Below, one piece after another: positions 23,673 to 32,840 of a stretch of 64,000 bases of DNA; positions within the stretch are counted from its first letter, which is position 1, and every line of letters begins with the position of its first letter. The stretch spans positions 1 through 64,000 of the forward strand of contig SHZZ01000009.1 in the NCBI GenBank assembly GCA_009692005.1, read 5' to 3'. The DNA comes from Gemmataceae bacterium. Its GTDB lineage: Bacteria > Planctomycetota > Planctomycetia > Gemmatales > Gemmataceae. The notes below the pieces were generated by a model. That model did not search any database, was not told where the DNA came from, and saw only the letters and a list, made by a program, of their open reading frames with translations. The position numbers were made by a program, and so were the translations under genes.

Positions 23673-24326
23673 ATGGCTGCCGGGGAAAAACCGCCCGCAA
23701 AACCTGTCAAACTTTATCCCCAGTCAATCGTCTTGGAAGCGGCAAACATGAAGAAAGGATTTTCCAAGGCCGGGGCTAATCATCAACCGGAGCCGTTGGG
23801 GGGAAATACTGCCTCCGCGCCCGGCGACAGCTTAGTCTCCGCCTTCACGGAATTCCGCGATGAGCTGGTCAGCACCCTTCTTTACCTCTTGGGCAACCGC
23901 GAAGACGCACAAGAGATGGCCCAGGAAGCGTTTTTACGCTGCTGGAAAAAAAAGGATGATATCGGCCAGATCATCAACATCAAGGCCTGGGTCTTCCGCA
24001 TTGCGCTCAACGCTTCCAAGGATCTTAAGCGCAGCGCCTGGAAGAGAAAGTCCCGCGCCTTTCCCGAGGAGGAGATCATGAAGGAATACCGCACCGCCAG
24101 CCCCCTCGACCAGGTGGAAGACAAGGAGTCCCTCGACCTGATCCGCAAGGCCATGATGGACCTGCGGCCGGAAGAGAAGGAAGTCTTCCTCCTGAGGGAG
24201 AACGGCGAAATGACCTATGAACAAATCGCAGAGCATTCCCACCGGCCGGTGGGAACGGTGAAAACGCAGATGCGGTCGGCGTTGCAGAAATTGCGGGAAG
24301 CATTAATCCCAGCGGGCCAGAGTTAA
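23673..24326 (+). CDS. ECF-type RNA polymerase sigma factor
   Basis: 217 residues. Region 2 is DELVSTLLYLLGNREDAQEMAQEAFLRCWKK and region 4 is DLRPEEKEVFLLRENGEMTYEQIAEHSHRPVGTVKTQMRSALQKLR, with its helix-turn-helix. The first 50 or so residues are a poorly conserved extension; an alternative ATG at 23748 would shorten it by 25. It ends 24 bases before a gene whose N-terminus is a zinc anti-sigma domain, so the pair is very probably a sigma/anti-sigma unit in one transcript. Directs RNA polymerase to an unknown regulon. Confidence 0.92.
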   Translation: MAAGEKPPAKPVKLYPQSIVLEAANMKKGFSKAGANHQPEPLGGNTASAPGDSLVSAFTEFRDELVSTLLYLLGNREDAQEMAQEAFLRCWKKKDDIGQIINIKAWVFRIALNASKDLKRSAWKRKSRAFPEEEIMKEYRTASPLDQVEDKESLDLIRKAMMDLRPEEKEVFLLRENGEMTYEQIAEHSHRPVGTVKTQMRSALQKLREALIPAGQS

Positions 24327-24350
24327 ATCGCTCCAAGCAAGAGGTGTGTC

Positions 24351-27300
24351 ATGTGGAATTGCGAAACGACAAAAACGCGGATTTTGGAATCGCTTTACAG
24401 CTTGCTGGAACCGCGCGAGGTGGAAGAATTCGAGGCGCATTGCCTCGCCTGCCCTTCCTGCCAATCCCTGAGGGAAGCCAGCAAGGGGCAAAAGGAAATG
24501 CTGGCCGCCGCTGCGCGCATTCAGTTCCCCAATATTCGCTTCACCCCTCCGATTGAAACCCTCCCCATGGCGAGTTCCCCACGGCAGTTTTCCAAACTGG
24601 CCCGCAGAGTTTTTGCCTTGGCCGCCATGCTGATCCTGGCCCTGGGGGTGGGCACTTTCCTGCAGTTCCGCTCCTTGGGAAATGACCATAAAACCGTCAA
24701 AGATTTTGACTTGTTGATCGCCTCCGCTCAGGATCAGGTCAATCGCGAACGATCCGCTCTTAACTTCCTGCGCAGCGAAGGCATTAACAAAGTCCGTGAA
24801 GCCCAAGAGGAAATCCGCAAGAAACAATTGAAGGTGATTGTCACCGGGCCAGCCACTTTGCAACCGGGAGCCCACAATCATTTCCAGATTTTGACCAACG
24901 ACAACCAGAACCGCCCGGTGGAATCGCGCGTCGATGCCTATGTGGAAGACAAGGCCAACCCGGGAATTCGCTTTCCCGTGGCTTCAAAAATGGCCTCGCG
25001 TGGCAACCTGCAATTGACCCTTCCACCAGATCTGCCTCTTAAGCCCAATAGCAGGCCAGTCCTCATCGTATCGGCCAAGCGCGATTCGGGCGCTTCGGTT
25101 GAAATCAAGGAAGGGCTCTCGCTTGCCACTGCTGTCCATGTGGCCCACCTCGCCACCGATAAACCCATGTACCTACCGGGAGAAACCGTACACTTCCGCG
25201 GCTTGGTCCTTGACCGCTTCAGCCTACGCCCGCCAGAAGAGGCTTTCTCTTTGGTTTTTGTCCTGACTACACCCACACAGGAACAACGCGTGGTGGGCCA
25301 GGGCAACGGCACAGTTTCCCGAGGCGCCCCGACTCCGGCGCTTATCAACGGGCCCGATGGCAAACCGATTCGAGGCATGGGCGCCGGTTCCTTACTTATC
25401 GAACCGAATGCCCCCGGCGGGGAATACACCCTCGCCATTCGCGATCAGTACAACCGCTTCCCCGAACAAACCCGGAAGTTTATCGTCAACCGCTATCAAA
25501 AGCCCCGCATCAACAAGGAACTCGACTTCAACAGAAGAACTTACGGCCCAGGCGACGAGGTCGTGGCCAACTGCAAGGCCACTTCCGCTGATGCCAAGCC
25601 CCTGGCCAACCGGCCGGTGCTGGCCACACTTACGGTCGATGGCCAGGCCATCGGCGCCGATGGCAAGCCTTCCCCCCAACCGCTTCGTTTGCAAACCGAT
25701 AACAACGGCCGAGTGGCCGTCCGCATGAAACTGCCCGCTTCCATCAACAAGGGCCAAGCCTCTCTGGCGGTGAACTTCGACGACGGCGGCAATGTCGAAA
25801 CTCTTTCCAAGCCGGTTCCAATTGTCATCAACAAGCTCGACATTGAATTTTTCCCGGAAGGTGGCGACCTTGTTGCCGGTTTGAACAACCGCGTCTATTT
25901 CCAGGCCCGCACTCCTCTGGGTAAAGCCGCCGACATGGAAGGCCGTCTCCTTGTGGATGGCCAACCCGCCGGCATCTCTTTAAAAACCCTCACGGACGAC
26001 ATCGAGCCCGGCATCAACCAGGGCATGGGAAACTTTTCCTTCACTGCCAAGCCGGACAGCCAATATGAAGTCGAGGTGACCAGCCCCGCTTCCATCCAGG
26101 GCAAATTCAAGCTTCCCCAGGTGAAAAAATCCGGCACCGTTCTCACCATCCAAGACGAGGTGATTCGGCCAGGCAAAACCGTGCGGGGTGAAGTACAAAC
26201 CACCACGAAATCCCGCTTGCTGGTCGGCCTTTATTGCCGCGGCAGACTTCTCGATTCCACCACACTGGAAGAAGGGCGAAAGGATTTTGAGCTGAAACCC
26301 GTCGACCCGATTGGCGGCATTTGCCGCATCACTGTCTTCGAAGAAAAGGTGACCGACCCCAACACCCGCGACCTGGTTCCCTGCGCTGAAAGGCTCTGCT
26401 ACCGCGTTCCGCTGGAAGCCCTGCGCTTGCGCATGACCGCCGACAAAACCGCCTATGTCCCCGGACAAAAGACCAAGGTCATCATTGAAACCCTGGATGA
26501 AAAAAGCACGCTAACGCCGGCGGTATTGCTGATCGGCGTGGTGGATCGAACCGTGGTGACCATGGCGGATGAGAAAACCGCGCGCACCATGCCCACCCAT
26601 TTTCTTCTCACCACGGAAGTTCGCAAGGCTCAAGACTTGGAATTTGCCGATGTTCTCCTGGGTGATCATCCCAAGGCTGGCCAGGCCTTGGATTTGCTCT
26701 TGGGCACGCAAGGCTGGCGCCGCTTCGCCGAGCAGAACCCCGTCAAATTCCGCCAGCTTCATAAAGAGGAGGCGGATAATTTATTAGTGACCATTGGCCA
26801 GGTGTCGGCTCAGCCGACTGACATTTCCATGGAACCCGTGGAAACCTTGCTCAAGAAGTACGACCCGTTGCTTTCACAAGCCGAAGAGAAGGTGGTCAAG
26901 GCCAAGGAGGCTTTTTCCGTGCTGGCCAGTCCCCCCGCGGTGGAGACAGCCCGCGCCCGGCTAGCCTGGTGGAACGACGCTTTCGATGATTTCTCCCGGC
27001 TGCTTCCTGCCCTGGCCGTGATTGGCATCCTGTTGATTGCCGTTTTCTTTTCCATTCGCGCCGTGATTAACCCCAAACTAGGCAGGCTGGTGCTTGGCAC
27101 CATCGCGGGACTGTGTGGAATATTGATCCTCTTCACCATTCCTTTCATGGGTGATCCCCGTCCTTTCATGGGTGATCCCCGTGTGGAAGGGAGGCCCAAA
27201 ACGGCCGTGAAATCGGACATGTTCAAGGACCAATTGATGGATCAAGGCGGGGCCCAAATGGAAAAAGGCATGGCCAAAGAAGGTGATCAAGCTCGCTTTG

Positions 27301-29912
27301 CCATGGTGCAAGCCGAGGCCAAGCGTGGCATGGAACCCAATGAAATGGTTCTGCCACGCGCCATGAAAAAAGAAATGAAGGCGGTTGGCGGTCTCCCTCC
27401 AGGCGCCGCCCGATTGAATCTACCTGGCGGACCGCGGCCTTTGAATGAAGTCAATAAAAACCAGGGAGCGGGTCGCGGCGCTGGCAAGCCCCTCGACGGC
27501 ATTGCCAACCGGCCCGCCGCTGTCATGGCGGATCAAATGCCTGAGTTGGAGCTATTTGCCCGCAACAAGGCCCAAAATCTTTTTATTCAGGAGCAACCCA
27601 GGGAGGATGCTCGGCAAATGATCGGCGGCAAGTTTGCTGAGCAAAACGCCCAGCAAATGCGCCGCATTTTCAACCGCGGTGAAGGCATGGCCGACCGCGA
27701 ACGCATGGATGCCGCTTACCACGCACCCATGGTCTACAGGCAATACGCCCACGAACGCACCGGCGGGGAACGACCCGAACTGCGCTCCGACTTCACCGAA
27801 ACGCTCTACTGGAACCCAGTCTTTATCACGCAGGACGGCAAGGGCGAATTCTCCTTTGATCTCAGCGACAATGTCACCTCCTTCGTCGCCACCGCTTTCG
27901 GCCACACGCTCGACGGCCGCCTCGGCGCCGCCAAGATCTCCTTCGATTCCCGCTTGCCCCTGGTGCTGCAGCCCAAGATTCCTTTGGAACTCACCAGCGG
28001 CGATGAAGCCGCCATTCCCCTGGCCATTACTAACAACTCCGCTGATCCCAGGCAGACGGTCATTCAAATCGATCGCTACGACGGCCTTTCCCTGACCAAA
28101 GGCAATGTTTCCGAAAGTGTCGCCTTGAAACCCGGTGAGACGCAACGCCGCCTGTATACTTTCAAGCCACTGGATGGTGAAGGCGAGGCTGTTCTTTCGT
28201 TCAAGGGCAAAGCCGAGGGTTTTGCCGCTGATGCTATTCGCGAGACCATTCGTGTTTCATCCGCCGGGTTCCCCATCGCCAACGCCGTTTCCGACACCAT
28301 GGAAGGCGTCTTCGCCTCCAAGGTGCGCTTGCCGGATACTTGGATCCCAGGCACCCTTTCCCTCAAAGCCCGCGTTTTCCCATCCGTCCTGGCCGATTTG
28401 CAAAAGGGCCTCGAAGGGATGCTGCGCGAGCCCAATGGCTGCTTCGAACAGACCTCCACCAGCAACTATCCCAACTTGCTCATCCTCGATTACATCAGGG
28501 AAAGCAATCAGCAAAACCCCGAGGCGGAAAAACGCGCCCTGGAACTCCTCGACAAGGGCTACAAGAAACTCGTCTCTTTTGAATGCACCGACACCAAGGC
28601 CAACGCCAAGAAGGGCTACGAGTGGTTTGGCGGCACCTCCCCAGCCCACGAGGCGCTCACCGCCTACGGACTCCTGCAATTTCGCGATATGTCCCGCGTA
28701 ATGGCCGTCGATGACGCCATGCTCAAGCGCACACGCGATTACCTCATGAATCAGCGCGATGGCAACGGCGGCTTCAAGCGCAATTCCCGCGCCCTCGATT
28801 CCTTCGGCCACGCACCCGACAACATCACCAACGCTTACATTGTCTGGTCGATCACCGAGAGCGGCAAAGACGACGATGTCGCCAAGGAAGTCGCGGCTTT
28901 GAAATCCCAGGCTCAATCCTCCAAGGACCCGTATTTCCTGGCCCTGGTGGGAAACACCCTGCTTACCCGCAACGACCGCGAAGCCGGCGAGGAACTGCTG
29001 CGCAAAATTATCAAGGAACAAAAGGAAGACGGCCACCTCGATGCCGAGAAAACCAGCATCACCGGTTCCGGCGGACGCGATCTGCAAATCGAAACCACCG
29101 CCCTGGCCATTCTCGGCTGGCTGAAGGCCAACCGCGCCGAGTTCAATCTCCCGTCGCGAAAGGCCATCGAGTGGGTTGGCAAACAGCGGGGCGGGCACGG
29201 CGCCTTTGGCTCCACCCAATCCACCATCCTGGCTCTCAAGGCGCTCATCGCCTTTACCAAGGCCAACAAGAAAACGGCCGAGGCCGGGGAATTGAAACTC
29301 TTTTTAAACGACAAGCAGATGGCCCTAGTCAGCTTCCCCGCAGGCGCGACCGAAGCCATGGAATTGACCCTTCCCGAGCCAGGAAAAAACCTCAAACCGG
29401 GAGACAACTCCATTCGCCTCGAGGTGAGCGGGAAAAACATCTTCCCCGCCACTCTGGCCTGGAGCTACCACACCTTGCAGCCGCCAAGCGCCGACAACCT
29501 GCCCGTGAAAATGACCTCGGCCCTTTCCCTCACCGAGGCCAAGGAAGGCGACCCGTTGCAGTTGAAGTTGCATGTGGAAAACACGCAAGACAAGGGCCAA
29601 GGCATGGCGGTGGCGATCCTTGGCTTGCCTGCTGGGTTGGCTCTGCCAGACGACCTCAGGCAGTTGCGCGACTTGATTCGCTCGCCCGAAGACGGGTCGA
29701 GGCCGGCGCTGAGCGCGTTTGAAACTCGTGGTCGGGAACTGGTTCTCTACTGGCGCGATCTGGCGCCGATGCAGAAGATCGACCTCAACCTCGACCTGAT
29801 ATGCCGGGTGCCGGGGTCCTATACCGGCCAGGCCAGCCGCGCCTACCTCTACTACAACGCCGACAACAAGCACTGGACCACGCCGCTGCAAATAAAAATC
29901 GCACCCAGGTAG
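24351..29912 (+). CDS. zinc anti-sigma domain fused to alpha-2-macroglobulin
   Basis: 1853 residues. Residues 1-50 form a cytoplasmic ZAS domain with H30-x3-C34-x2-C37. A membrane helix spans about 86-106. Then come macroglobulin-like domains, a second hydrophobic pair at about 884-935, a Met/Arg/Lys-rich bait-like stretch (about 945-1130), the A2M domain (SDFTETLYWNPVFITQDGKGEF) and the thioester C1364-F-E-Q1367, followed by the alpha-alpha toroid and receptor-like domain. The architecture suggests protease trapping outside the cytoplasm coupled to release of the upstream ECF sigma factor; this coupling is inference. The extra helix pair in the middle is unusual. Start supported by the adjacent sigma gene. 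Confidence 0.9.
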   Translation: MWNCETTKTRILESLYSLLEPREVEEFEAHCLACPSCQSLREASKGQKEMLAAAARIQFPNIRFTPPIETLPMASSPRQFSKLARRVFALAAMLILALGVGTFLQFRSLGNDHKTVKDFDLLIASAQDQVNRERSALNFLRSEGINKVREAQEEIRKKQLKVIVTGPATLQPGAHNHFQILTNDNQNRPVESRVDAYVEDKANPGIRFPVASKMASRGNLQLTLPPDLPLKPNSRPVLIVSAKRDSGASVEIKEGLSLATAVHVAHLATDKPMYLPGETVHFRGLVLDRFSLRPPEEAFSLVFVLTTPTQEQRVVGQGNGTVSRGAPTPALINGPDGKPIRGMGAGSLLIEPNAPGGEYTLAIRDQYNRFPEQTRKFIVNRYQKPRINKELDFNRRTYGPGDEVVANCKATSADAKPLANRPVLATLTVDGQAIGADGKPSPQPLRLQTDNNGRVAVRMKLPASINKGQASLAVNFDDGGNVETLSKPVPIVINKLDIEFFPEGGDLVAGLNNRVYFQARTPLGKAADMEGRLLVDGQPAGISLKTLTDDIEPGINQGMGNFSFTAKPDSQYEVEVTSPASIQGKFKLPQVKKSGTVLTIQDEVIRPGKTVRGEVQTTTKSRLLVGLYCRGRLLDSTTLEEGRKDFELKPVDPIGGICRITVFEEKVTDPNTRDLVPCAERLCYRVPLEALRLRMTADKTAYVPGQKTKVIIETLDEKSTLTPAVLLIGVVDRTVVTMADEKTARTMPTHFLLTTEVRKAQDLEFADVLLGDHPKAGQALDLLLGTQGWRRFAEQNPVKFRQLHKEEADNLLVTIGQVSAQPTDISMEPVETLLKKYDPLLSQAEEKVVKAKEAFSVLASPPAVETARARLAWWNDAFDDFSRLLPALAVIGILLIAVFFSIRAVINPKLGRLVLGTIAGLCGILILFTIPFMGDPRPFMGDPRVEGRPKTAVKSDMFKDQLMDQGGAQMEKGMAKEGDQARFAMVQAEAKRGMEPNEMVLPRAMKKEMKAVGGLPPGAARLNLPGGPRPLNEVNKNQGAGRGAGKPLDGIANRPAAVMADQMPELELFARNKAQNLFIQEQPREDARQMIGGKFAEQNAQQMRRIFNRGEGMADRERMDAAYHAPMVYRQYAHERTGGERPELRSDFTETLYWNPVFITQDGKGEFSFDLSDNVTSFVATAFGHTLDGRLGAAKISFDSRLPLVLQPKIPLELTSGDEAAIPLAITNNSADPRQTVIQIDRYDGLSLTKGNVSESVALKPGETQRRLYTFKPLDGEGEAVLSFKGKAEGFAADAIRETIRVSSAGFPIANAVSDTMEGVFASKVRLPDTWIPGTLSLKARVFPSVLADLQKGLEGMLREPNGCFEQTSTSNYPNLLILDYIRESNQQNPEAEKRALELLDKGYKKLVSFECTDTKANAKKGYEWFGGTSPAHEALTAYGLLQFRDMSRVMAVDDAMLKRTRDYLMNQRDGNGGFKRNSRALDSFGHAPDNITNAYIVWSITESGKDDDVAKEVAALKSQAQSSKDPYFLALVGNTLLTRNDREAGEELLRKIIKEQKEDGHLDAEKTSITGSGGRDLQIETTALAILGWLKANRAEFNLPSRKAIEWVGKQRGGHGAFGSTQSTILALKALIAFTKANKKTAEAGELKLFLNDKQMALVSFPAGATEAMELTLPEPGKNLKPGDNSIRLEVSGKNIFPATLAWSYHTLQPPSADNLPVKMTSALSLTEAKEGDPLQLKLHVENTQDKGQGMAVAILGLPAGLALPDDLRQLRDLIRSPEDGSRPALSAFETRGRELVLYWRDLAPMQKIDLNLDLICRVPGSYTGQASRAYLYYNADNKHWTTPLQIKIAPR
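27141..27182 (+). repeat. 21-bp tandem duplication inside the macroglobulin gene
   Basis: Two exact 21-bp copies (27141-27161, 27162-27182) encode PFMGDPR twice, right after the second hydrophobic segment. In-frame duplication, so the protein is only lengthened by seven residues. Confidence 0.9.

Positions 29913-30086: not shown

Positions 30087-32840
<2,754 letters not shown>

Follow-up and report, generated by a model that had tools for sequence, protein, structure and literature searches.

A candidate signalling unit in Gemmataceae: an extracytoplasmic function sigma factor paired with an anti-sigma domain fused to a transmembrane thioester macroglobulin

Here, we describe two adjoining genes in a 64,000-nucleotide stretch of DNA (the window) from a Gemmataceae bacterium (contig SHZZ01000009.1 of assembly GCA_009692005.1; genome of 4.19 Mb in 99 contigs). 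On the + strand, the first gene encodes an extracytoplasmic function (ECF) sigma factor and the second, whose ATG lies 24 nt after the stop codon of the first, encodes an 1853-residue protein in which an anti-sigma domain is fused to an alpha-2-macroglobulin (A2M). This architecture and this adjacency recur in the family and beyond it, and the anti-sigma domain and the sigma gene have been replaced together and lost together. We suggest, with a probability of about one half, that the two genes form a signalling unit in which a transmembrane macroglobulin receptor controls the release of the sigma factor through its bait- and thioester-containing half.

The sigma factor exceeds the Pfam cut-offs for Sigma70_r2 (41.6 bits) and r4_2 (45.6 bits) and scores 78.8 bits against TIGR02937 (cut-off 42.9); thus, it has regions 2 and 4 of an ECF sigma factor. 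It is not a member of TIGR02989 (gvs1), for which it scores 66.5 bits against a cut-off of 124.55. The gene probably starts at ATG 23748, giving a protein of 192 residues (23748..24326, +), because the start called in the original prediction, 23673, falls upstream of a promoter-like element at 23708..23732. The fusion is encoded at 24351..29912 (+). At other loci of the window's type, referred to here as class A, an orthologue of this sigma factor with about 47–60% identity adjoins the fusion.

Several lines of evidence identify residues 1–56 of the fusion (24351..24518) as a class I anti-sigma domain. In a structure model of residues 1–112, the helices 4–15, 21–33, and 35–55 precede the first transmembrane helix (TM1), and the per-residue confidence (pLDDT) is 96–98 over residues 1–50. 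A profile of 27 N-termini matched RslA (2.7e-5), RsrA (8e-4), RsiW (0.026), and DdvA (0.049) among PDB sequences. VIA-align gave Z scores of 5.9–6.8, modest for small helical domains, to RsiW, RslA, MucA, and RskA, all four entries shown being anti-sigma factors. The top eleven Foldseek rows were all complexes of a sigma with an anti-sigma factor, at weak E-values (1.5 to 8.1); we therefore base the anti-sigma identity on the profile search and on the kind of chains recovered. Of the putative zinc residues C4, H30, C34, and C37, the last three form the HxxxCxxC motif that the original prediction had recognized, together with a full thioester-containing A2M body in the same chain; both are confirmed here, and C4 is added to the zinc residues. 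The Pfam zf-HC2 model (PF13490) stays below its cut-off in the window protein (14.9 versus 22.2 bits; E 0.68 in the whole-protein scan), and six of the seven class A orthologue N-termini tried exceed this cut-off. The expectation, set beforehand as a refuting test, that the zinc residues would be conserved formally failed: HxxxCxxC is present in 38 of 68 sigma-paired fusions and absent from the other 30. This test was too strict, because zinc and non-zinc class I domains mix within groups, the latter being common, according to the part of the source considered here (PMC7406223). Altogether, the fold and profile matches, the adjacency, and the joint replacement and joint loss make it well supported that the fusion acts, as first proposed, as a membrane-bound anti-sigma factor on the neighboring sigma factor, and its N-terminal domain likely binds and inhibits this sigma factor.

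The pair is kept widely. Relatives of the fusion were detected in 90 of the 95 family genomes searched (E 1e-10). We examined 60 Gemmataceae loci, i.e., the window and 59 loci that were picked for good matches with room upstream and are not a random sample. In 53 of these, a sigma gene lies directly upstream of the fusion; the pairing is therefore no chance arrangement, and the second refuting test of the original prediction, a sigma gene not retained beside the fusion, leaves the proposal standing. Among the seven loci without a sigma gene, six (L041, L044, L063, L078, L085, and L086) have TM1 and no anti-sigma domain, while the seventh (L052, G001:C13) has a broken frame with an in-frame TGA and is either a decaying copy or a sequencing error. 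Of 392 genomes sampled from the phylum, 126 have a match to one part or another of the fusion. Reading 20 phylum stretches with 21 A2M genes revealed nine proteins with a sigma neighbor and a second membrane contact, the TM2–TM3 hairpin described below, and one (L125) with a sigma neighbor and no hairpin. Thus, the pair co-occurs in other planctomycete families too; named carriers are Zavarzinella formosa, Limnoglobus roseus, and Planctomycetes bacterium K23_9. A contig search with an alignment query, from which the best 80 of 570 confirmed candidates were kept, extended the collection (a single-protein query had found nothing).

Across 116 deduplicated loci, 63 have sigma gene and hairpin, 31 have neither, six have a hairpin without a sigma gene (among them L158, possibly truncated or frame-shifted), and in eight the upstream region was not seen; the remainder comprises four loci with a sigma gene and a contig cut, one with a sigma gene and one transmembrane helix (L199), one with one such helix and no sigma gene, L125, and L130, which has a doubtful sigma gene (39 bits) and no hairpin. 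These counts omit rows without an MG2 anchor, some of them pieces among L142–L221; of the omitted rows, L048, L052, and L085 were read separately. The 31 loci with neither feature, where the upstream region was seen, encode free A2Ms from planctomycete, myxobacterial, Bacteroidetes, proteobacterial, and other bins, some of which may be misnamed where they consist of metagenome contigs. These proteins, of about 1350–1600 residues, align with the part of the fusion that runs from about residue 264 to the C-terminus, and the thioester motif GCFEQ is present in all 39 hairpin-less proteins in which it was sought. Free A2Ms of this QGWRRF/GCFEQ lineage (Myxococcales, Bacteroidetes, and Proteobacteria bins) thus share body and motif with the fusion but differ from it in having neither hairpin nor sigma neighbor.

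The strongest evidence that anti-sigma domain and sigma factor work together is that they change or disappear together. Class B copies have an N-terminus and a sigma family different from those of class A. In a tree of the macroglobulin body with 30 rows, class B and its derivatives without the anti-sigma domain form a clade (100/99) inside class A (enclosing clade 100/100). This tree redid, with more care and without nearly identical rows, fragments, and some of the distant free A2Ms, a FastTree of 91 rows, which places class B in the same position. In the sigma tree, the nine class B sigma factors group apart from those of class A, and the one member tested, from L043, belongs to TIGR02989 (144.8 bits, cut-off 124.55); this match favors replacement over rapid joint divergence as the probable origin of class B. 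The rows nearest to class B (L067, L069, and L081) have kept the class A sigma factor and lost the zinc ligands. Within class B, the well-supported branches require at least three changes to account for the copies lacking both anti-sigma domain and sigma gene, and one genome (G019) carries both kinds, L043 and the domain-less, sigma-less L078. L125 represents a separate fusion among free-type A2Ms, in which a short anti-sigma domain with a zinc motif (match to NF052375 at 3.7e-9, under the cut-off of this model) goes with another sigma factor and no hairpin. Short anti-sigma-like domains fused to hairpin-less macroglobulins were also seen at L127 and L128, from other planctomycete families, on contigs that start too early to show whether a sigma gene precedes them; the zinc motif occurs in the domains of L125 and L127, not in that of L128.

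The fusion has more membrane contacts than the single helix of the original prediction. That helix, TM1 (residues 83–105, 24597..24665; hydropathy 2.19), stands and forms, in the model, the start of a helix spanning residues 86–157 that comprises TM1 and a stalk; however, a TM2–TM3 hairpin with a positively charged loop (residues 881–930, 26991..27140) had been missed. The strongly hydrophobic segments of this hairpin, residues 881–903 and 909–930 (hydropathy 2.82 and 2.32), agree with modelled helices 825–859 and 862–906 (stalk and TM2) and 908–929 (TM3), in a model of residues 1–1200 whose overall pLDDT is 72 and in which the relative placement of the parts is not to be trusted. Of 70 hairpins, 64 have a loop with a net positive charge and none has a negative one (mean +2.6), a pattern that fits a topology with the N-terminus and the hairpin loop inside and the macroglobulin parts outside. 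Based on its N-terminal position and on these charges, the anti-sigma domain is likely cytoplasmic and the macroglobulin likely outside the membrane.

The macroglobulin part has the features of a thioester (type I) A2M, i.e., MG domains, an A2M domain, and a thioester domain with CxEQ, and exceeds the Pfam cut-offs for TED_complement (108.3 bits), MG2 (46), and A2M (45). MG2 to the first half of MG6 take up residues about 264–800 (25140..26750), with a QGWRRF motif at the end; these limits are approximate and rely on Pfam MG2, the strand pattern of the model, and structural matches. After TM3 follows a linker (residues 931–1125, 27141..27725), then the A2M domain (PF00207; residues 1151–1237, 27801..28061) and the thioester domain (residues 1342–1634, 28374..29252) with the motif GCFEQ and C1364. 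The linker is predicted to be disordered (pLDDT <50 over residues 931–1097) and is the least conserved part, with a modal identity of 0.22 versus 0.67 for the thioester domain and a length of 109–351 residues among 34 aligned sequences. It lies before the A2M domain, where A2Ms carry their bait. In A2Ms, the bait region is largely disordered and its cleavage sets off a conformational change, as described in the part of PMC4498604 drawn on here. By analogy, the linker has the properties of a bait region and is presumed to be one. The same genome also encodes a second, free macroglobulin of 2075 residues (L055:4881-11108, G000:C23) with a GCTEQ thioester motif, a signal-peptide-like start, and no anti-sigma domain.

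The element upstream of the sigma gene, CAAAC-N16-CGTC (23708..23732, +), is a likely autoregulatory ECF promoter, located 15 nt before ATG 23748. An unbiased dyad count ranked CAATC-N17-CGTC first, with exact matches in 24 of 58 upstream regions (maximum of five in five shuffles). The relaxed form CAANY-N15..18-CGTC precedes 43 of 69 sigma genes (mean of 4.2 and maximum of 8 in 50 shuffles), with a gap of 14–17 nt to the first ATG in 29 of the 43; the control sequences came from simple block shuffling, and the loci of closely related genomes are not independent of one another. By group, the relaxed element is present in 37 of 43 Gemmataceae class A loci, where CAAWC-N16/17-CGTC is the common form, in one of nine class B loci, and in 5 of 17 others. 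The lack of the element in class B is expected if the class A sigma factor reads it. These findings provide good support for the idea that the sigma factor transcribes its own operon. Thus, the shared promoter motif envisaged in the original prediction exists upstream of the sigma genes but does not extend to an established regulon. Genome-wide, CAATC-N17-CGTC has 2010 sites in 22 genomes versus 1799 for the same-phase N14 control, exceeds the control in 16 of the 22 (Wilcoxon p 0.005; counts include repeat copies in G006), and this small excess points to a small regulon. In the window's genome, MAAACTT-N14/15-CGTC has seven sites, that of the sigma gene among them. One other, at G000:C70:76804 (CAAACTT-N14-CGTC), precedes a secreted-looking protein of 67 residues (76804-77072; L260, L290) that ends in HVSGNFEDPRFT. 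Relatives of this protein were found in 13 of 25 genomes searched, and of 17 matches, 14 loci were read for the element, which is present in six (7 in 700 shuffles). As a lead, this protein may be a regulon member or the target of another ECF sigma factor. Beside the pair, no third conserved gene was found among 27 loci, which share just overlapping open reading frames and clusters in at most 8 of the 27; PBP1C itself was not searched for. Downstream of the fusion in the window lies, by sequence impression, a pyruvate phosphate dikinase-like gene (30087-32840, +), and a similar gene occurs in the flanks of L142, L144, and L175, i.e., at 4 of the 27 loci including the window.

We suggest that the macroglobulin outside the membrane is the sensing part and that the anti-sigma domain inside holds the adjacent sigma factor. 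A protease would cut the linker beside the hairpin, or another event would activate the thioester. The macroglobulin half would then collapse and catch the attacker covalently by its thioester, and the change would pass via the stalk and TM1 and via the hairpin to the anti-sigma domain, probably with regulated proteolysis of TM1, freeing the sigma factor. One protein would in this way serve as trap and as alarm, and autoregulation would supply a new trap whenever one has fired. The pairing of sigma and anti-sigma factor is well supported; cleavage of the linker as the trigger is less certain, since we infer it by analogy with A2Ms and from the features of the linker. The disordered, hypervariable linker after TM3 and the retention of GCFEQ in 67 of 70 hairpin proteins are consistent with such a trigger. 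Site-2-type M50 proteases are encoded in the window's genome and likewise in all 14 control genomes, and therefore lend weak support to regulated proteolysis.

Several observations count against the proposed signalling unit. Three sigma-paired members lack GCFEQ and have a type II-like variant (L075, in which no motif was found, L079 with GPFEQ, and L087 with GGLEQ), suggesting that the thioester is not essential everywhere; A2Ms without a thioester, such as MagD, still trap proteases, according to the part of PMC5764988 consulted. There are also copies that have retained the A2M body and lack both anti-sigma domain and sigma gene; the body can thus serve another purpose, which speaks against a pure protease-to-sigma switch. 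Co-variation of sigma and anti-sigma distances does not discriminate: the partial correlation given the thioester domain is 0.41, no stronger than the value for sigma factor against MG2 domain (0.49). Finally, neither the site counts in 22 genomes nor the reading of candidate-target loci established a conserved regulon. A bolder version of the proposal, which we put forward tentatively as less likely than not, is a complement-like receptor threaded through the membrane that would capture an attacking or ingested protease covalently and free the sigma factor through that very cleavage of the bait beside its hairpin, in one event; planctomycetes would have built it at least twice, with exchangeable sigma outputs.

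The anti-sigma domain could instead regulate the sigma factor while the macroglobulin senses a signal other than a protease, e.g., a ligand of the MG domains, small nucleophiles at the thioester, or envelope tension via stalk and hairpin. The three sigma-paired members without GCFEQ fit this idea, as do the conservation of the MG body away from linker and thioester domain (modal identity of 0.55–0.68 over residues 263–800) and the best PDB sequence match, CD109, a macroglobulin anchored in the membrane whose better-known role is the modulation of receptors. However, the linker remains disordered, hypervariable, and cleavable-looking, and GCFEQ is nearly always kept in hairpin proteins; we consider non-protease sensing unlikely, although it is the alternative to be taken most seriously. 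Less probable still is that the A2M is simply a protease trap whose amount is tuned by the anti-sigma domain, linking supply to demand without a wider regulon. The clearest target is indeed the promoter of the pair itself, the excess of N17 over N14 sites is small, and the pair has no further conserved neighbor; against this, the small site excess remains, and the family of secreted small proteins has the promoter-like element at close to half of the loci read.

That the anti-sigma domain is a relic or a membrane anchor without control over the neighboring sigma factor is highly improbable. The loss of zinc ligands in many sigma-paired fusions could be taken as decay, but the domain is exchanged and lost in step with the sigma gene, whereas a relic would not track the identity of its neighbor, and non-zinc anti-sigma domains are common (PMC7406223, in the part considered). 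An assembly chimera or chance neighbors might be suspected in a genome of 99 contigs; the occurrence of the pair in many genomes, including the single-contig G071 and G074 (L059 and L060), Z. formosa, and L. roseus, already refutes this explanation.

Compared to known class I pairs, i.e., RsiW-SigW, RslA-SigL, RseA, MucA-AlgU, and RskA-SigK, the proposed unit is alike in its adjacent genes, its helical cytoplasmic domain, often with HxxxCxxC, the transmembrane helix after this domain, and a promoter-like element suggesting autoregulation. By contrast, the outer parts of RseA, MucA, and RskA are small, while that of the fusion is a thioester macroglobulin of roughly 1750 residues with a second, hairpin contact to the membrane. 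The closest PDB sequences are those of eukaryotic tethered or secreted thioester proteins and A2M, namely CD109 (1e-31), TEP1 (2e-23 to 4e-23), and human A2M (about 1e-22), and CD109, C3, C5, TEP1, and A2M are structural matches of the model of residues 1–1200. Escherichia coli ECAM was not among the PDB sequence matches at E 0.01, an absence that is not evidence of unrelatedness. CD109 has a GPI (glycosylphosphatidylinositol) anchor, as stated in the part of PMC5889571 used, instead of which the fusion has TM1, the hairpin, and an intracellular anti-sigma domain. The bacterial ECAM and SaA2M (type I, PBP1C) and MagD (type II, mag operon) resemble the fusion as envelope macroglobulins with a bait region; in the parts of PMC4498604 and PMC5764988 considered, bacterial A2Ms are held at the inner membrane, and type I has CxEQ. 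They are linked to PBP1C or MagA-F, and these parts describe no anti-sigma domain for them. We found no anti-sigma/macroglobulin fusion described in the literature searched; a mention in texts on ECF reclassification or Planctomycetes genomes or in the 2004 A2M survey is possible. One article that has both anti-sigma factors and macroglobulins (PMC12839542) is, in the part considered, unrelated.

Bacterial macroglobulins are discussed as passive traps. Here, a macroglobulin appears to be wired to transcription, by an arrangement that is conserved across the family and beyond. If our proposal is correct, it would represent a bacterial parallel to complement-type sensing, it would open the signal of a planctomycete ECF family to testing, and it would add a sensor that turns proteolysis outside the membrane into a transcriptional response. 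The swap of the sigma/anti-sigma module is a natural experiment, which suggests that the macroglobulin body is able to serve more than one ECF output.

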